Source: Streptococcus australis (GTDB lineage: Bacteria; Bacillota; Bacilli; Lactobacillales; Streptococcaceae). Taken from it: a stretch of DNA of 64,000 nucleotides. Below are positions 5,586-62,074 of this stretch, in pieces (within the stretch, counting starts at the first letter, position 1; the number at the start of each line of letters is the position of its first letter). The notes beneath the pieces are model-generated. The model was not told the DNA's origin. It searched no databases and saw only the letters and a program-made list of their open reading frames with translations. Made by a program: the position numbers and the translations under genes. Where the stretch lies: positions 62,001-126,000 of the forward strand of contig NZ_LR594040.1 in assembly GCF_901543175.1 (NCBI RefSeq), given 5' to 3'.

Positions 5586-6352
5586 TTCAGTCTATAACGA
5601 GTCAAGGCTTGGTGCTCTACAATCGTAACTTTCGTGAGGATGACAAGCTAGTCAAGATCTTTACCGAGCAGGCGGGCAAGCGCATGTTTTTCGTCAAACA
5701 CGCTGGCCAGTCCAAACTAGCTCCAGTTATTCAGCCCTTGGTGTTAGCACGATTTCTCTTGCGAATCAATGATGACGGGCTTAGCTACATCGAGGACTAC
5801 CATGAGGTGATGACCTTTCCCAATATTAATAGTGATCTCTTTGTCATGGCCTATGCGACCTATGTTGCTGCCCTTGCAGATGCTAGTTTGCAGGACAATC
5901 AGCAGGATGCTCCCTTGTTTGCTTTCTTGAGGAAGACTCTAGAGTTGATGGAAGCGGGTTTGGATTATCAGGTTTTAACCAATATTTTTGAAATTCAAAT
6001 CTTAACCCGATTTGGGCTTAGCCTTAATTTTAATGAGTGTGTCTTTTGCCATCGGGTCGGTCAGGCCTTTGACTTTTCTTTTAAATATGAAGCCTGCCTC
6101 TGTCCAGAGCATTATCATGAGGATGAGAGACGTTGCCATCTGAATCCCAATATCCCTTATCTTCTCAATCAATTTCAAGCCATTGATTTTGAGACCTTGG
6201 AGACCATTTCGCTCAAGTCTGAAATCAAGCAAGACTTGCGCAAGTTTATAGACCAAATCTATGAAGAGTACGTTGGGATTCACCTAAAATCAAAGAAATT
6301 TATTGATTCCCTAGCAGACTGGGGACAATTACTAAAAGAGGAAGACAAATGA
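5582..6352 (+). CDS. recO: DNA repair protein RecO
   Basis: A 256-residue RecO of the RecFOR pathway, which loads RecA on SSB-coated single strands. The N-terminal OB fold starts [22 protein letters not shown]. The zinc finger is visible as CVFCHRVG near residue 149 paired with ACLCPEHYH near residue 171. It overlaps the aminotransferase stop by 4 nt, and its own stop overlaps the plsX start (ATGA), so aminotransferase-recO-plsX-acpP form one operon. Confidence 0.95.
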
Positions 6353-7341
6353 AAAAAATTGCAGTAGATGCTATGGGGGGCGATTACGCACCTCAAGCCA
6401 TCGTTGAGGGGGTCAATCAAGCCCTAGCTGACTTTTCAGATATTGAGATTCAACTCTATGGAGATGAAAGCAAGATCAAGCAATATCTAACAGCGACAGA
6501 GCGTGTTAGCATTATCCATACGGATGAGAAAATTAACTCAGACGATGAGCCGACAAAAGCTATCCGTAAGAAGAAAAATGCCAGCATGGTATTGGCAGCC
6601 AAGGCAGTCAAGGAGGGAGAAGCAGACGCTGTCCTCTCTGCAGGCAACACAGGTGCCTTGTTGGCAGCAGGATTCTTCATCGTGGGTCGTATCAAGAACA
6701 TCGATCGTCCTGGGCTTATGTCGACCTTGCCGACTGTAGATGGGAAGGGTTTTGATATGCTAGACCTCGGTGCCAATGCGGAAAATACAGCTCAACACCT
6801 GCATCAATATGCTGTCCTAGGTTCCTTCTACGCGAAAAATGTTCGTGGAATTTCGAAACCACGTGTTGGTTTGCTCAACAATGGAACAGAAAGCAGCAAG
6901 GGAGATCCCCTTCGCAAGGAAACATACGACTTGCTAGTAGCTGATGAAAGTTTGAACTTTGTCGGAAATGTGGAAGCGCGTGATCTGATGAATGGCGTTG
7001 CGGATGTTGTCGTAACAGATGGTTTCACGGGAAACGCTGTTCTCAAATCTATCGAAGGGACCGCTTTGGGAATCATGGGCTTACTTAAAAATGCTATTAC
7101 AGGTGGTGGACTTCGAGCGAAGCTAGGTGCTCTACTTCTCAAGGATAGTCTTAAGGGGTTGAAGACACAGCTCAACTATTCAGATGTTGGAGGGGCAGTC
7201 TTGTTTGGTGTCAAGGCGTCAGTTGTAAAGACTCATGGTTCCAGTGATGCCAAGGCTGTGTACAGTACGATTCGCCAGATTCGTACCATGCTCGAAACAG
7301 ACGTAGTTGCTCAGACTGCGCGTGAATTTTCAGGAGAATAA
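6349..7341 (+). CDS. plsX: phosphate acyltransferase PlsX
   Basis: Converts acyl-ACP to acyl-phosphate, feeding PlsY in membrane phospholipid synthesis. The 330-residue length is normal for the family. Family motifs: N-terminal [22 protein letters not shown] near residue 97, [19 protein letters not shown] near residue 175, and [17 protein letters not shown] near residue 222. Translation is coupled to recO by a 4-nt overlap. The partner acyl carrier protein gene follows by 4 nt. Confidence 0.97.
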
Positions 7342-7345
7342 AAAG

Positions 7346-7582
7346 ATGACAGAAAAAGAAATTTTTGACCGTGTTGTAACCATTATCCAAGAGCGACAGG
7401 GAGAAGACTTTGTCGTGGCAGAAGCCTTGAGTTTGAAAGACGACCTAGATGCAGACTCAGTAGACTTGATGGAGTTCGTCCTAACGCTAGAAGATGAATT
7501 TGGTATCGAGATCAGCGATGAGGAAATCGACCAACTTCAAAGCGTAGCAGATGTGGTCGGAACTATTAAAGGTAAGATATAG
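7346..7582 (+). CDS. acpP: acyl carrier protein
   Basis: A 78-residue acidic four-helix ACP. The phosphopantetheine attachment Ser is in LDADSVDLMEFV (DSV in place of the usual DSL), near residue 37. The start at 7346 follows CAGGAGAATAAAAAG. Downstream of plsX, ACP provides the acyl donor for that enzyme. Streptococci often carry a second ACP in the fab cluster, so this copy may serve phospholipid synthesis or fatty acid uptake rather than bulk synthesis; that is inference. Confidence 0.92.
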   Translation: MTEKEIFDRVVTIIQERQGEDFVVAEALSLKDDLDADSVDLMEFVLTLEDEFGIEISDEEIDQLQSVADVVGTIKGKI

Positions 7583-7589
7583 CAAAAAG

Positions 7590-7615
7590 CAACATGCAAG
7601 TCATGTTGTTTTTTT
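7590..7615 (+). terminator. terminator after acpP
   Basis: The 7-bp stem CAACATG / CATGTTG has a CAAGT loop and is followed by seven T. It separates the housekeeping operon from the peptide locus. Confidence 0.85.
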
Positions 7616-7656
7616 GTTTGCAGGAAAAAGGAAAAATTTGAAACATTTTTGTAGAA

Positions 7657-7666
7657 ATTGCGAATA
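7657..7666 (+). promoter_or_regulatory. CGAATA box 1 (candidate sigma-X/ComX cin-box)
   Basis: ATTGCGAATA ends 32 nt before the ATG of micropeptide 1. TGCGAATA differs at one base from the streptococcal competence consensus TACGAATA, and a T-rich stretch (CATTTTTGTAG) lies upstream. The same hexamer recurs at the same distance before two more paralogous ORFs. Confidence 0.55.
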
Positions 7667-7698
7667 AAGAGATGAGAAAGAAAAAAGGAGGAACGTTC

Positions 7699-7749
7699 AT
7701 GTACATGCCAATCTTGTATCCATGGTACATCAAGTGGTTTTTAAAATAA
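7699..7749 (+). CDS. Trp-rich micropeptide 1 (16 aa)
   Basis: ATG with AAAAAAGGAGG eight nt upstream encodes MYMPILYPWYIKWFLK and then TAA. I do not recognise a named family. The peptide is cationic (Lys 12 and 16), aromatic and amphipathic, with no leader. It shares the pattern P-W-aromatic-I-K-W-aromatic-L-K with the second peptide. The ORF is too short for routine gene calling. The strong ribosome binding site, upstream CGAATA box and two downstream paralogues are the evidence that it is real. Function could be pheromone-like, toxin-like or leaderless antimicrobial; the sequence does not decide. Confidence 0.65.
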   Translation: MYMPILYPWYIKWFLK

Positions 7750-7780
7750 AAATAAAATAGTTGTTCATTTTCGAATTGTT

Positions 7781-7789
7781 TTTCGAATA
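7781..7789 (+). promoter_or_regulatory. CGAATA box 2 (candidate sigma-X/ComX cin-box)
   Basis: TTTCGAATA is preceded by GTTTT and ends 33 nt before the ATG of micropeptide 2. The following sequence GATAGGTAAGAGGAAAAGGA is nearly repeated after box 3. Confidence 0.5.
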
Positions 7790-7822
7790 GATAGGTAAGA
7801 GGAAAAGGAAGGAGACTACGCG

Positions 7823-7873
7823 ATGTATTTACCAATCTTATTGCCATGGTTTATCAAATGGTATTTAAAATAA
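7823..7873 (+). CDS. Trp-rich micropeptide 2 (16 aa)
   Basis: Encodes MYLPILLPWFIKWYLK. Thirteen of 16 positions are identical or conservative relative to micropeptide 1, so this is a tandem duplicate kept in frame. The ribosome binding site AAGGAAGGAG lies upstream. The Trp-Lys periodicity would place both Lys on one helix face. It has no signal peptide and no double-glycine leader. Retention of reading frame, length and stop position argues for selection. Function unknown. Confidence 0.65.
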   Translation: MYLPILLPWFIKWYLK

Positions 7874-7902
7874 ATGAAATTTACCTGTTCATTTTAAATC
7901 AC

Positions 7903-7912
7903 TTCTCGAATA
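7903..7912 (+). promoter_or_regulatory. CGAATA box 3 (candidate sigma-X/ComX cin-box)
   Basis: TTCTCGAATA ends 32 nt before micropeptide 3. No other promoter is evident between here and the bacteriocin genes at 8036, so this box may also drive the bacteriocin operon. Confidence 0.5.
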
Positions 7913-7944
7913 GATAAGTGAGAAGAAAAGGAAGGAGAGAAAAA

Positions 7945-7995
7945 ATGATTTCAGTAATTTACCCAATCTGGTTTTTTAAATGGTTTAAAGCCTAG
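7945..7995 (+). CDS. Trp-rich micropeptide 3 (16 aa)
   Basis: Encodes MISVIYPIWFFKWFKA. It is the most diverged of the three but keeps the length, a Pro in the middle, the W-aromatic-aromatic-K-W core and a Lys near the end. The ribosome binding site GAAGGAGAG lies upstream. It is the last unit before the bacteriocin precursor at 8036 and is probably cotranscribed with it. Function unknown. Confidence 0.6.
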   Translation: MISVIYPIWFFKWFKA

Positions 7996-8035
7996 AAACC
8001 ATAAACTAAAAAAATAAAAATGAAGGAGAAAACAA

Positions 8036-8227
8036 ATGACAAACTTTGACAAAATGGAACAGAACTTTGTAGCTCTTACTGAAGAAGAGTTGATGGATGT
8101 GGATGGGGGATTGATTATTACAGCAGCTGGAATTATTTTAGCAGGAAAAGTAGCAGGTGCTGTGGTTACAATTGGAGGAGCTCTTTATGGAGCAGGATAT
8201 GCTATTGGAACAGCATTGCGACCTTAA
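8036..8227 (+). CDS. class IIb bacteriocin-like precursor, double-glycine leader (peptide 1)
   Basis: A 63-residue precursor. The 25-residue leader contains LTEEELMDVDGG, the canonical GG motif cut by C39-peptidase ABC transporters. The 38-residue mature part is hydrophobic, rich in Gly and Ala, with GxxxG-type spacing (GKVAGAVVTIGGALYGAG), as in two-peptide bacteriocins. The next gene encodes a similar partner. ComA, 1.6 kb downstream, has the matching peptidase domain. Start ATG follows AATGAAGGAGAAAACAA. It corresponds in position to the BlpU-type bacteriocin seen upstream of comA in pneumococcus. Confidence 0.85.
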   Translation: MTNFDKMEQNFVALTEEELMDVDGGLIITAAGIILAGKVAGAVVTIGGALYGAGYAIGTALRP

Positions 8228-8251
8228 TATGATTAGAAAGGAGGCTTAGTA

Positions 8252-8434
8252 ATGAAACAATTTCAAGAATTATCTTTTCAAGAACTTGAAGAGGTTCAAG
8301 GTGGTGTTATTACATTAACGATAGGTACGGTAGTACTTGTAGGCTGGAAAGCAGTAGCAGCTTATGGTGCAGCGGCTACTTTAGCAGGAGGCACACTTGG
8401 ATTGGGAGTCTATAATGGGTACAGAGGGCGTTAG
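8252..8434 (+). CDS. class IIb bacteriocin-like precursor, double-glycine leader (peptide 2)
   Basis: A 60-residue precursor with the 18-residue leader MKQFQELSFQELEEVQGG. The 42-residue mature peptide is hydrophobic, Gly/Ala-rich and ends in basic YNGYRGR. It is likely the second component of a two-peptide bacteriocin with the gene at 8036, by adjacency and similar size. Ribosome binding site AGAAAGGAGG. The stop codon lies 4 bp before the next ORF, a probable immunity protein. Confidence 0.85.
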   Translation: MKQFQELSFQELEEVQGGVITLTIGTVVLVGWKAVAAYGAAATLAGGTLGLGVYNGYRGR

Positions 8435-8437
8435 ATT

Positions 8438-8662
8438 ATGAACAATCACAACCTTAATCTCAATACACTCTTACCCAAATTAGCCACTATAGTTCCTTTG
8501 TTGGCTATAGCTCTCAATCTTGTACTTCATGTAATTCGTACAGGTTCATTAGTATCCTTTGATTGGAAATGGACTGTAGTTGGTTTACTTGCTTCGGGCT
8601 ATTTTGGTATTTTTTGTAAGGATTTGACGAAAAATAATCAAAACTATAAAAGATCAATCTGA
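8438..8662 (+). CDS. small membrane protein, probable bacteriocin immunity
   Basis: 74 residues with two hydrophobic segments (roughly residues 12-30 and 42-60) and a basic tail (KNNQNYKRSI). It starts 3 nt after the bacteriocin stop, the usual position of a class II immunity gene. No family is recognised from sequence; immunity is inferred from position, size and topology. Confidence 0.7.
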   Translation: MNNHNLNLNTLLPKLATIVPLLAIALNLVLHVIRTGSLVSFDWKWTVVGLLASGYFGIFCKDLTKNNQNYKRSI

Positions 8663-8733
8663 ATGAAAAGGATTTTGTGCATGTAAATGACGGAGTTTTT
8701 CCGCCTTTCTTGTCAGGCAAATAGGAGTCTGCT

Positions 8734-8922
8734 ATGAAAAAAATCTTATTAAGTTTTGCTGAAGGATATTTTATCGTATCACTCATTACCTACATCGCAA
8801 CGTATTTGATTTTGAAAAATCCGATCAATACCTTGTTTTATCCAGAAACCTATCCAATTCTGCTTGGTCTGTTTTATGTAGGATACAAGTACAAAACAAA
8901 AGAAAGTAAGATAGGAAATTGA
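8734..8922 (+). CDS. small membrane protein in bacteriocin locus
   Basis: 62 residues with two hydrophobic stretches (about 5-28 and 38-52) and a Lys-rich C-terminus (YKYKTKESKIGN). The start follows AATAGGAGTCTGCT. It is one of five consecutive small membrane ORFs after the bacteriocin pair, which may be immunity proteins against several bacteriocins. Unrecognised otherwise. Confidence 0.65.
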   Translation: MKKILLSFAEGYFIVSLITYIATYLILKNPINTLFYPETYPILLGLFYVGYKYKTKESKIGN

Positions 8923-8946
8923 TGGACCATCAGATTGGAGTTTGGG

Positions 8947-9156
8947 ATGAAAGTTGTTCAATTACTACGAAAAGCTTGGCCAGAGACTACTGTATTATTT
9001 AGCTCGATGGCTTATCTAATTATTAGAATTGTAGCTGATGTAAACAAAATACATCTACCTACATGGTTTGAATATTTTGATGTGCCTACGATTTCATTAT
9101 TCTTGATGACCTTTATCTTACTTTATAGAAGTGAAGAAAAAGATAACAAATGGTGA
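8947..9156 (+). CDS. small membrane protein in bacteriocin locus
   Basis: 69 residues. I chose the ATG at 8947 because GGAG lies 6 nt upstream; a TTG at 8935 would add 4 residues. Two hydrophobic segments flank a DVNKIHLPTWFEYFDVP linker, with a charged tail (YRSEEKDNKW). This topology resembles the neighbouring small proteins. A putative immunity role is inference. Confidence 0.6.
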   Translation: MKVVQLLRKAWPETTVLFSSMAYLIIRIVADVNKIHLPTWFEYFDVPTISLFLMTFILLYRSEEKDNKW

Positions 9157-9252
9157 CAATATGAGTCTGATTTCTGTAGATCCAGCATAAAAGCAATCTT
9201 GGAGTGTTAGACCAATGAACCATAATCTATATTTAGTTAGGAAGGTGTCTGT

Positions 9253-9488
9253 ATGTTAAAAAAGAAGTGATGTTATTAGGGGGGCTTTTACTAGTACGTA
9301 TTGTGCTTTCTATCCTTCAAGTTTTAATGGACTATAATCTATTACCAGGAAAGTGTAGTATAAATTTCATGGAGGTTTCAGACTTGTTCTCTTATCCCCT
9401 ACTTCTTTTAATCATTTACATAGCGGTAAAATACCATACTATCCCGAAAATAACGGCTAAAGAAGGAAATGAGGACGAAAATGAATAA
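9253..9488 (+). pseudogene. small membrane protein gene, apparent frameshift in A-run at its start
   Basis: A good ribosome binding site (TTAGGAAGGTGTCTGT) leads into ATGTTAAAAAAGAAGTGA, which stops after five codons. One extra A in the run at 9258-9263 would join this start to the open frame from 9267 (MLLGGLLLVRIVLSIL onward, about 73 codons). That frame has two membrane segments and an acidic tail (KEGNEDENE). The ATG at 9267 has no ribosome binding site of its own. This is either a real indel, a sequencing error at a homopolymer, or slippage-dependent expression. Confidence 0.55.
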
Positions 9489-9675
9489 GATTTTAAAATC
9501 TATTCTTGTATTTGTTTTCCTATTTTTGATGAATATTTTCATCTTTGGGATACTAGCAACTCTTGGATTTCAGGTAACAATGAGTGAAAATAGTTATGTG
9601 GTGCCACCTGTGTTTGCGTTTATCGTTTTATACGCTATTCACAAAAGAAGTGGGGAAGGTAAGAAATCTGTGTAA
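9481..9675 (+). CDS. small membrane protein, last gene of bacteriocin locus
   Basis: 64 residues from the ATG at 9481, preceded by GAAATGAGGACGAAA; an in-frame ATG at 9469 is less well placed. It overlaps the preceding frame by 8 nt. Two hydrophobic segments (about 5-30 and 37-53) and a basic tail (HKRSGEGKKSV). It is followed directly by a strong terminator that closes the peptide locus. Function unknown. Confidence 0.6.
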   Translation: MNKILKSILVFVFLFLMNIFIFGILATLGFQVTMSENSYVVPPVFAFIVLYAIHKRSGEGKKSV

Positions 9676-9686
9676 TTGAATATTCT

Positions 9687-9715
9687 AGGCAGAACTTTTG
9701 TTCTGCCTATTTTCT
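9687..9715 (+). terminator. terminator of the bacteriocin locus
   Basis: Stem AGGCAGAAC / GTTCTGCCT with a TTTT loop, followed by ATTTTCTTT. Confidence 0.85.
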
Positions 9716-9726
9716 TTGGTAAAAGT

Positions 9727-9756
9727 GCTGTTCAGGTGAGGATATTGTTTTTTCAG
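9727..9756 (+). promoter_or_regulatory. ComE-type direct repeat upstream of comAB
   Basis: Two half-sites ending in TTCAG (9731-9735 and 9752-9756) lie 21 bp apart, the spacing of the ComE binding repeat at pneumococcal early competence promoters. A TAAAAT/AATAAT -10-like region lies about 32 bp downstream with no -35 box, as expected for an activator-dependent promoter. Confidence 0.75.
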
Positions 9757-9838
9757 AAATAATTCCCTTATTTCTTCCTTGTTTGGTTAAAATAATCTTA
9801 CAAAGTTTTTAAGAGATTATTAGGAAAAGGAGATGAAT

Positions 9839-11992
9839 ATGAAATTTGGGAAAAGGCACTATCGTCCCCAGGTGGATCAGATGGATTGTGGCGTGGCTTC
9901 CTTGGCCATGGTCTTTGGCTACTATGGTAGTTATTACTCCTTGGCTCACTTGCGAGAGTTAGCTAAGACGACCATGGATGGGACGACGGCTTTGGGTCTT
10001 GTAAAGGTAGCAGAGGAGATTGGTTTTGAAACGCGAGCTATCAAGGCAGATATGACGCTCTTTGATCTGCCTGATTTGACCTTCCCTTTTGTGGCCCATG
10101 TGCTCAAGGAAGGGAAATTGCTCCACTATTATGTGGTGACAGGTCAGGACAAGAAGACGATCCATATCGCTGATCCAGATCCTGGTGTTAAGCTGACCAA
10201 GATTTCCCGTGAGCGATTTGCGCAAGAATGGACAGGGGTCAGTCTCTTTATGGCTCCGTCTCCAGACTATAAACCCCATAAGGAGAAAAAACAGGGGCTC
10301 CTATCCTTCTTGCCAATCTTATTCAAACAGCGTGGCTTAATCACCAATATCGTCCTAGCGACACTCTTGGTAACTCTGATCAATATTGTGGGCTCCTATT
10401 ATCTACAGTCTATCATTGATACCTATGTGCCAGATCAGATGCGCTCGACCTTGGGCATCATCTCAATAGGACTGGTCATCGTCTATATCCTTCAGCAGAT
10501 CTTGTCTTATGCGCAGGAATACCTTTTACTTGTTCTGGGGCAACGGTTGTCAATTGACGTGATTTTGTCCTACATCAAGCATGTTTTTCACCTGCCGATG
10601 TCATTTTTCGCGACACGCAGGACAGGAGAAATCGTGTCTCGCTTTACGGACGCCAATAGTATCATCGATGCGCTAGCGTCGACCATTCTTTCTATCTTTT
10701 TGGATGTGTCGACGATTTTGATTATCTCGCTTGTCTTGTTTTCACAAAACATAACGCTCTTTTTCATTAGTCTGCTTGCACTTCCTATTTATACGGTGAT
10801 TATCTTTGCCTTTATGAAGCCTTTTGAAAAGATGAATCGGGACACTATGGAAGCCAATGCGGTTCTGTCCTCTTCTATCATCGAGGACATCAACGGTATT
10901 GAGACTATTAAGTCTTTGACCAGTGAAAGCCAGCGTTACCAAAAGATTGACAAGGAATTTGTAGCTTATCTGAAAAAATCCTTTACCTATAGTCGGGCAG
11001 AAAGCCAGCAAAAGGCCCTGAAAAAAGTTGCCCAGCTCCTGCTCAATGTTGCCGTTCTCTGGATGGGAGCAGTACTCGTTATGGATGGAAAAATGAGTTT
11101 GGGGCAATTGATTACCTATAATACTTTGCTTGTTTACTTTACCAATCCTTTGGAAAATATCATAAACCTGCAAACCAAACTTCAGACAGCGCAGGTTGCC
11201 AATAACCGTCTGAATGAGGTTTATCTGGTCGCTTCGGAGTTTGAGGAGAAGAAAACAGTCGAAGATCTGAGTATGATGAAGGGAGATATGACCTTTAAGC
11301 AAGTCCACTATAAGTATGGCTATGGTCGTGATGTTTTGTCGGATATCAATTTGACGATTTCGCAAGGTTCTAAGGTAGCTTTTGTCGGGATTTCAGGGTC
11401 AGGCAAGACTACCTTGGCCAAGATGATGGTTAATTTTTACGACCCTAGTCAGGGAGAGATTAGTCTGGGTGGTGTCAATCTCAATCAGATTGATAAAAAA
11501 GCCTTGCGCCAGTATATCAACTATCTACCTCAACAGCCCTATGTCTTTAACGGAACGATTTTGGAGAATCTTCTCCTTGGAGCCAAAGAAGGGACGACAC
11601 AGGAGGATGTTCTGCGAGCAGTCGAGTTAGCTGAGATTCGGGAAGATATTGAGCGGATGCCATTGAATTACCAGACAGAGTTGACTTCGGATGGGGCTGG
11701 AATTTCTGGTGGGCAACGGCAGCGAATCGCTCTGGCGCGTGCTCTTTTAACGGATGCTCCTGTTCTGATATTGGACGAGGCGACCAGCAGTCTGGATATC
11801 TTGACAGAAAAGCGGATTGTGGATAATCTTATGGCTTTAGACAAGACCTTGATTTTCATTGCTCACCGCTTGACCATTGCTGAGCGGACAGAGAAGGTTG
11901 TTGTCTTGGATCAGGGCAAGATTGTCGAAGAAGGCAACCATGCAGCCTTGCTTGCCCGAGGTGAATTTTACGCCCATTTGGTCAATAGCTAG
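9839..11992 (+). CDS. comA: competence factor exporter ComA (C39 peptidase-ABC transporter)
   Basis: A 717-residue protein that cleaves double-glycine leaders and exports peptides, classically competence-stimulating peptide, with ComB. Domains: C39 peptidase (catalytic Cys17 in QMDCGVAS, His96 in HYYVVTG, Asp in IADPDPG), six-helix membrane domain (about 165-440), and ATPase with Walker A GISGSGKTT, signature ISGGQRQR, Walker B LILDEATS and the switch His in IFIAHR. The ATG at 9839 has AAGGAG at 6 nt; the ATG at 9833 abuts that site. It is likely also the exporter for the adjacent double-glycine bacteriocins, given known cross-processing in pneumococcus. Confidence 0.97.
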   Translation: MKFGKRHYRPQVDQMDCGVASLAMVFGYYGSYYSLAHLRELAKTTMDGTTALGLVKVAEEIGFETRAIKADMTLFDLPDLTFPFVAHVLKEGKLLHYYVVTGQDKKTIHIADPDPGVKLTKISRERFAQEWTGVSLFMAPSPDYKPHKEKKQGLLSFLPILFKQRGLITNIVLATLLVTLINIVGSYYLQSIIDTYVPDQMRSTLGIISIGLVIVYILQQILSYAQEYLLLVLGQRLSIDVILSYIKHVFHLPMSFFATRRTGEIVSRFTDANSIIDALASTILSIFLDVSTILIISLVLFSQNITLFFISLLALPIYTVIIFAFMKPFEKMNRDTMEANAVLSSSIIEDINGIETIKSLTSESQRYQKIDKEFVAYLKKSFTYSRAESQQKALKKVAQLLLNVAVLWMGAVLVMDGKMSLGQLITYNTLLVYFTNPLENIINLQTKLQTAQVANNRLNEVYLVASEFEEKKTVEDLSMMKGDMTFKQVHYKYGYGRDVLSDINLTISQGSKVAFVGISGSGKTTLAKMMVNFYDPSQGEISLGGVNLNQIDKKALRQYINYLPQQPYVFNGTILENLLLGAKEGTTQEDVLRAVELAEIREDIERMPLNYQTELTSDGAGISGGQRQRIALARALLTDAPVLILDEATSSLDILTEKRIVDNLMALDKTLIFIAHRLTIAERTEKVVVLDQGKIVEEGNHAALLARGEFYAHLVNS

Positions 11993-61971: not shown

Positions 61972-62074
61972 AGGCAGTTACCTCATTTCTTTTGGGTTCT
62001 ATTACTAAGGAGAAATGACAGGTCGTATGCAAAGTTTTTTTGAAAAAATTGAATTTTTTGTGATTATTGATTAT

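Follow-up and report, generated by a model that had tools for sequence, protein, structure and literature searches.

Arrays of candidate 16-codon peptide genes behind SigX-type boxes at the cab bacteriocin locus of Mitis-group streptococci

The closest described relative of the locus analysed here is the Cab (competence-associated bacteriocin) locus of Streptococcus mitis, and the published statements given below are taken from those portions of the cited papers that were available. In strains other than ours, a cab-type locus has been found to be SigX-dependent by RT-PCR and luciferase assay (PMC6001120, PMC13059744), the type strain having been analysed by RT-PCR in a double sigX mutant (PMC6001120). 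Expression of cab requires comE, is lost on deletion of both sigX copies and is lowered by single deletions (PMC13059744). The same study reported that cab loci carry at least two and up to 38 SigX boxes, that box number rises with locus size, and that cab is expressed less when five boxes are reduced to one; the multiple boxes were read as promoter amplification or as recombination remnants (PMC13059744).

The locus described here shares with the S. mitis Cab locus (PMC13059744, PMC6001120, PMC11921387) its place between plsX-acpP and comAB, its boxes and its operon of double-glycine (GG) bacteriocins. What differs is the reading of the boxes, which have been treated as promoters or remnants (PMC13059744); in the window each precedes an ORF of 16 codons. 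Such genes receive no mention in the available portions of these three papers, nor in those of PMC2828477, PMC5729180, PMC4517551, PMC6328492, PMC6560143, PMC9426450 and PMC6476965. Small unannotated ORFs were searched for in PMC11921387, and bacteriocin ORFs were sought in PMC13059744 as stretches of 100–300 nt with a GG motif. In the main text of the open-access literature, supplements aside, we found no description of the micropeptides and no match to six peptide strings, in keeping with the suggestion in a first-pass annotation of this DNA that the family may be undescribed. ORFs of 16 codons lie beyond the reach of a search set to 100–300 nt and a GG motif.

Leaderless bacteriocins such as aureocin A53 and lacticin Q lack a leader, are often encoded in tandem, include Trp-rich members and span roughly 30–50 or more residues. 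The micropeptides, known here from their genes alone, are likewise leaderless, tandem and Trp-rich, but have 16 residues and low amphipathicity, and no dedicated exporter or immunity gene was identified for them. Phenol-soluble modulins, which are short leaderless staphylococcal peptides encoded in tandem under quorum-sensing control, are similar in being short, leaderless and tandem; the micropeptides differ from them in having no clear amphipathic helix and in their SigX-type promoters. XIP is a double-tryptophan pheromone, and SHP peptides usually carry their charge in an N-terminal export segment. Compared with these, the micropeptides are also short, hydrophobic and competence-linked, but they have no adjacent regulator in the window, form multi-copy arrays and show the opposite charge layout. 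Finally, type I toxins of the Ibs/Sib kind are tiny hydrophobic ORFs in repeats, as are the micropeptides, which however lie behind SigX-type boxes; a consensus scan of 7570–8430 found no promoter-like site on the minus strand over the array, and this region gave no Rfam match. Leaderless bacteriocins are also touched on in PMC11580447, as far as its available portion goes.

Anatomy of the array in the window

The window, the whole 64-kb stretch of DNA analysed, covers positions 62001–126000 of a contig in the 1.93-Mb genome of a Mitis-group Streptococcus. Within it, three tandem micropeptide repeats open a bacteriocin locus between acpP and comA/comB (Table 1), which its position between plsX-acpP and comAB and its GG-leader bacteriocins identify as a cab locus. 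The first-pass annotation had described three 16-codon ORFs with strong ribosome binding sites, a CGAATA 32–33 nt before each ATG, a module repeating about every 120 bp, and a location directly upstream of a bacteriocin operon and comAB. All of this was borne out: the gaps between box and ATG are 32, 33 and 32 nt, the start-to-start distances are 124 and 122 nt (about 124 bp per repeat), and the array is followed by GG bacteriocins and then by comA- and comB-like ORFs. A purine-rich spacer follows each CGAATA.

Table 1. Features of the cab locus in the window, in window coordinates
Feature	Position	Strand	Remarks
plsX	6349–7341		
acpP	end at 7582		
Stem-loop with T-run, 3' of acpP and 5' of the array	7590..7608	.	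scored on − in the scan; T-run also on +
SigX box 1 (TGCGAATA)	7659..7666	+	CGAATA core 7661–7666
Shine-Dalgarno 1 (AAGGAGG)	7685..7691	+	
Micropeptide ORF, type A, MYMPILYPWYIKWFLK	7699..7749	+	16 codons + stop
SigX box 2 (TTCGAATA)	7782..7789	+	CGAATA core 7784–7789
Shine-Dalgarno 2 (AAGGAAGGAG)	7805..7814	+	
Micropeptide ORF, type B, MYLPILLPWFIKWYLK	7823..7873	+	16 codons + stop
SigX box 3 (CTCGAATA)	7905..7912	+	CGAATA core 7907–7912; two departures from TACGAATA
Shine-Dalgarno 3 (AAGGAAGGAG)	7928..7937	+	
Micropeptide ORF, type C, MISVIYPIWFFKWFKA	7945..7995	+	16 codons + stop; final ORF of array
cab bacteriocin 1, GG leader MTNFDKMEQNFVALTEEELMDVDGG	8036..8227	+	Pfam Bacteriocin_IIc E 9e-6, 26 bits, slightly below cut-off of 27.1
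cab bacteriocin 2, GG leader	8252..8434	+	Pfam Bacteriocin_IIc E 1.7e-8, above cut-off
Five small ORFs of ~62–74 aa, putative immunity/membrane proteins	8438..9675	+	no Pfam match above cut-off
comA-like ABC transporter ORF, 719 aa	9833..11992	+	named from position and literature
comB-like ORF, 449 aa	12005..13354	+	putative; named by position

When 20,000 sequences were simulated with a first-order Markov model of the same 436 bp, none contained three 16-codon ATG ORFs preceded by a Shine-Dalgarno sequence; two such ORFs were seen in one sequence, and one in 301. By consensus scan, neither vegetative promoter-like sites within the array nor terminators between its repeats were detected.

Distribution and coding constraint across Streptococcus

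PlsX is present in 284 of 284 Streptococcus genomes. The comparison was built on 100 regions downstream of plsX: three come from genomes with PlsX at 85% identity, and 97 from the 99 genomes at 93% or above, the two omitted being G080 and G106. Excluding one region of 280 bp without acpP (L054) and one without plsX or acpP (L107) left 98 loci with acpP, of which 78 have both acpP and comA. A box-first scan, which starts at CGAATA boxes with T-rich sequence upstream and is blind to peptide sequence, returned 233 boxes in the 98 loci; 169 of these are followed by a short ORF, of 16 codons in 153 cases and 17 in 16, and the 16-codon ORFs begin with an ATG 31–35 nt past the box. This comparison across loci, going beyond the Markov test, is decisive support for the ORF array.

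In a complementary scan that scored peptides and was confined to ORFs of 16 and 17 codons, 215 ATG or GTG ORFs (193 with 16 codons, 22 with 17) were found in 77 of the 98 loci. Micropeptides occur in 69 of the 78 loci with both flanks. By strand, the same scan gave 246 sense matches against four weak ones in reverse. Nine two-flank loci have no micropeptides: six (L114, L123, L129, L130, L132 and L133) have a short acpP–comA gap of 207–239 bp, and three (L099, L105 and L113) hold other insertions. In L105 a single GG peptide (..GGGCNWGDFAKAG..), which we take to be BlpU-like, stands in place of the micropeptides. A single blpU has been reported at the acpP–comA position of S. pneumoniae, in the part of the source available.

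Sorting of the 233 boxes assigned 173 to micropeptides, 16 to a 42-codon GG peptide, about 14 to decayed copies, 11 to the inside of a bacteriocin gene end and 19 to other contexts. The decayed copies imply that single family members are dispensable. Nine boxes that the box-first scan had placed before a ‘66-codon ORF’ are mainly CGAATA within a bacteriocin gene end, and the 11 boxes of this kind separated by the later sorting lie within gene ends encoding ..YANRP (TATGCGAATAG) in loci from L039 to L138 (for example region 1273 of L078 and region 6355 of L094, counted after acpP). Counting SigX boxes by motif alone can therefore give too many for a cab locus.

A profile search of 279 Streptococcus genomes yielded 80 with a best E of 5e-4 or lower, the next value being 0.0116 (counted by eye); the other 47 of the 127 genomes matched at E ≤ 1 were taken as noise. 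In the window's own genome, the three profile matches at E ≤ 1 are the three array ORFs. At the DNA level, 70 of 197 genus genomes matched at E ≤ 0.001, weak short matches included. A pattern scan of genome_contigs, whose limited sensitivity recovers 56 of the 98 loci, returned 60 stretches, 44 from Streptococcus; the remaining 16, from unrelated taxa, each held one match and were taken as chance. Named Streptococcus matches include S. mitis, S. oralis, S. infantis, S. pseudopneumoniae, S. thalassemiae and S. shenyangsis, together with two records labelled S. pneumoniae. A mobile or phage origin was considered and set aside, the module pattern having no exact match in viral_contigs. In five genomes (G080, G089, G104, G149 and G163) plsX and the micropeptides fall on separate contigs, or the matches lie at contig ends; such breaks probably cause arrays to be undercounted.

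The peptides were typed by their first residues as A (MYVT.. or MYMP..), C (M(I/L)IS.. and kin) or B (the rest). In all 67 loci with a locatable MTNFD-type bacteriocin the order is A-B-C, with A solely in first position and C solely in last position before the bacteriocin. Arrays contain from none to five B copies, five being reached in L066, L094, L101, L117 and L120, and L087 has seven, split into two groups by a GG peptide. Among the 133 pairs of adjacent starts closer than 300 nt, 127 show a spacing of 120–127 nt. The type B peptide MYLPILLPWFIKWYLK is identical in 23 of the 169 box-linked ORFs, and the bacteriocins behind it show nine different 8-residue mature starts, some of which differ little from one another. 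In L060 and L061 a micropeptide is present with a TTGAATA box, and no GG peptide was found by pattern. Six loci (L051, L055, L057, L073, L109 and L119) have a lost or broken C-type ORF and have kept the CGAATA box and the bacteriocins.

The micropeptides, 16–17 residues in all, lack a leader, are hydrophobic and aromatic and carry Lys near their end; W9 is found in 165 of 169 A/B peptides and the last Lys in 169 of 169. No GG motif occurs among 44 distinct box-linked peptides, which places them apart from double-glycine class II bacteriocins. Net charge is +2 in 196 of the 215 peptides, 0 in 15, +1 in two and +3 in two. The helical moments of the 14 commonest peptides, calculated alongside no control set, range from 0.06 to 0.32. 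We regard moments in this range as low. An initial description of the peptides as cationic, amphipathic and aromatic hence holds for their aromatic content and, for most, their charge; it does not suit the 15 neutral peptides, and amphipathicity is weak.

The first-pass annotation had also proposed that the reading frames be examined for codon-level conservation. Pooled pN/pS in the box-selected sets is 0.32 for types A and B, from 42 distinct DNAs, and 0.33 for the 22 of type C, and the share of diversity at third positions gave permutation p values of 0.00085 for A/B and 0.056 for C. In the peptide-scored sets of 65 and 23 sequences, whose choice by peptide score may lean towards low pN/pS, the corresponding values are 0.001 and 0.081, in agreement with the box-selected sets, for which box, start and length were the sole criteria. 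In the peptide-scored sets, column permutations, which retain the kinship of loci related through descent and exchange, reached the observed pN/pS in 0 of 200 cases for A/B and in 19 of 200 for C. With the ATG as anchor of the module alignment, 15-nt bins inside the ORF had a mean diversity of 0.21–0.25 for A/B and 0.04–0.15 for C. Outside the ORF it was 0.34–0.58 for A/B (save for 0.26 in a 3-nt end bin) and 0.28–0.65 for C, values inflated by the ungapped alignment, in which changes in flank length count as diversity. An RNA element was considered and rejected: Rfam gave no match across 7300–9900, and RNAalifold on 40 randomly drawn A/B modules found no consensus structure (z 0.37). Across the Mitis clade, codon-level conservation of this kind makes a strong case that types A and B are selected coding sequences, and is suggestive for type C taken alone. 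Overall, the micropeptides very probably represent a real gene family. To our knowledge, few dedicated sigma-factor-driven genes are as small as these would be, if real.

SigX boxes and the published cab promoters

A T-run and a (T)NCGAATA box, the features of the SigX-regulon motif, lie upstream of the starts. TgCGAATA and TtCGAATA are both listed as SigX-box variants; the box 1 variant is also given for ssbB and comGA (PMC6001120 Table 4), and box 2 is the box published for the cib-like operon (PMC6001120). The assignment of SigX promoters by the first-pass annotation accordingly stands for boxes 1 and 2, and for a locus type that is SigX-dependent in other strains, and is weaker at box 3, with its two departures.

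The geometry of published promoters can be compared with that of our loci. SMSK321_1305 was described with three boxes, a 229-nt distance and mature peptides 40 and 33 aa long (PMC6001120). Among our loci, in seven of seven whose bacteriocin has the 40-aa mature part starting IAPIIIGGVVIGWKL, the last box stands 33 nt ahead of the MYLPILLPWFIKWYLK start codon and 229 nt ahead of that of the bacteriocin; the 33-aa partner is present in at least six of these. A close 40-aa allele, IAPIIIGGVVISWKL, shows 120–130 or 362 nt in five loci, which limits the 229-nt match to one allele, and L094 and L120, with another bacteriocin, also show a distance of 229 nt. From this strain match by geometry we infer that the published SK321 SigX promoters include a micropeptide promoter. 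The type strain was described with two boxes, 33 nt to SM12261_0044 and mature peptides 20 and 32 aa long (PMC6001120). In L108, which has two T-rich boxes and three CGAATA in all, 33 nt separate the box from a GG peptide of 42 codons whose mature part has 20 aa; beyond another GG peptide lies a mature peptide of 32 aa, and the upstream box lies 35 nt from MFISMFYPWFTELFFK. By the same kind of geometric match, the type strain would have one micropeptide gene upstream.

We regard it as evenly balanced whether what have been read as multi-SigX-box ‘promoters’ in the cab loci of Mitis-group streptococci are arrays of genes for peptides of fewer than 20 residues, forming a shared module that takes exchangeable bacteriocin sets. 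If they are, the puzzling tandem runs of 2 to 38 SigX boxes could be re-read as an unannotated, selected peptide gene family, and the reading of promoter-truncation and whole-locus-deletion results at cab could change; should G22 have the array, the published promoter truncation would have taken out several peptide genes along with the boxes. Genes of 16 codons can be found by box-anchored searches, and competence biology would gain a new, directly testable component.

Possible roles of the peptides

In the account we favour, each repeat of about 124 bp would be a complete gene, with a SigX promoter and a strong ribosome binding site ahead of 16 codons that encode an aromatic and hydrophobic peptide lacking a leader. 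In late competence, SigX would start nested transcripts at the boxes, reading on into the cab bacteriocin operon; as no terminator was detected between the repeats in the window, these transcripts would give both the peptides and the bacteriocin operon. The array would then be peptide genes and a multi-start promoter at once, and nested transcripts entering the operon would explain the published gain from more boxes. Given the strong ribosome binding sites, translation is expected to yield a burst of 16-residue peptides in competence, which would remain with the producer, inserted in its cytoplasmic membrane, and serve the Cab system as generic partners, in export through ComAB, in surface retention or in general self-protection. 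A generic role is suggested by the constancy of the peptides while a locus's bacteriocins are swapped, and the occurrence of the same peptides before different bacteriocins counts against a bacteriocin-specific one. The first-pass annotation had put forward competence-induced toxin, fratricide or signal peptides as possible roles. Being hydrophobic, aromatic and leaderless, with Lys near the end and low moments, they fit, in our view, the producer's membrane interface better than they fit a classical amphipathic toxin. The account as a whole, SigX-driven peptide genes whose products act as generic Cab partners at the producer's membrane, could equally well prove right or wrong. Its final element, the membrane-partner role, which is drawn from peptide composition, we put forward tentatively, at somewhat less than an even chance.

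Synthetic CabA and CabB together lyse pneumococcus (PMC13059744), so that the micropeptides would not be needed for that killing step. The main competing possibility is that they are antimicrobials themselves: leaderless, fMet-started, membrane-active killers, exported or released by lysis and encoded in tandem for dose, in the manner of leaderless bacteriocins or staphylococcal phenol-soluble modulins. This would suit the tandem amplification of B copies (five in each of five loci, seven in L087), the aromatic-rich and mostly +2 composition of peptides encoded in a predation locus, and competence-only expression, which would limit self-harm. It is at odds with the low hydrophobic moment, the neutral charge of 15 of the 215 peptides, the lack of a leader, and a pattern of change that is purifying and not diversifying; moreover, the window has no ORF of at least 100 aa between acpP and comA, on either strand, that might serve as an extra exporter. 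Published supernatant data, in the portions available, point both ways: a cab-dependent loss of supernatant inhibition was described for C22 and G22 (PMC11921387), but S. mitis G22 supernatant did not inhibit pneumococcus (PMC13059744), and both results would bear on the micropeptides only if these strains carry the array. These mixed results slightly raised our estimate for the killing role, which we still consider unlikely, and slightly lowered that for the membrane-partner role. Transformation was unchanged when CSP-responsive genes found only in S. mitis were deleted, and the available text does not state whether the array was among the genes removed (PMC6001120).

It is improbable that the ORFs act only in cis, as leaders whose translation protects or tunes nested SigX transcripts while the peptide itself matters little. 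Strong Shine-Dalgarno sequences, and the position of a micropeptide ORF, in many loci, after the last box and ahead of the bacteriocin ATG, would be expected of such leaders, but the constraint acts at the amino-acid level, neither a conserved RNA fold nor an Rfam match was found, and the C-type ORF, nearest the bacteriocin, can be lost with box and bacteriocins kept (as in L051, L055, L073 and L109). Promoter amplification alone, the published reading, in which recombination remnants were kept for more bacteriocin with the ORFs as passengers, would account for the lower expression on truncation to one box and for the growth of box number with locus size (PMC13059744), but passengers should not retain a 16-codon frame, variation concentrated at third positions and a fixed A-B-C order; we consider it decidedly improbable. 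Very unlikely, in spite of their short, hydrophobic, Trp-containing and competence-linked character, is that the peptides are pheromones of the XIP/SHP type, imported and read by an Rgg-type receptor, as the absence of ORFs of 100 aa or more leaves no Rgg-type regulator beside the genes in the window, each locus has several different copies, and the charge lies at the C-terminus and not in an N-terminal export segment.

Turning to the neighbouring genes, the five small unassigned ORFs downstream of the bacteriocins may belong with the Cab peptides. The comA-like ORF is 76.6–98.3% identical over its first 300 residues to its counterparts in the other 77 two-flank loci. Upstream of it, judged by eye, TGCTGTTCAGG at 9726–9736 matches the left half of the published ComE site well and its right half poorly (consensus from the available portion of PMC11921387). 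In the first cab bacteriocin (8036–8227 in the window), the leader is nearly constant across many loci (MTNFDKMEQNFVALTEEEL..GG) and the mature part is swapped, with 20 distinct 8-residue starts, several of them near-variants.
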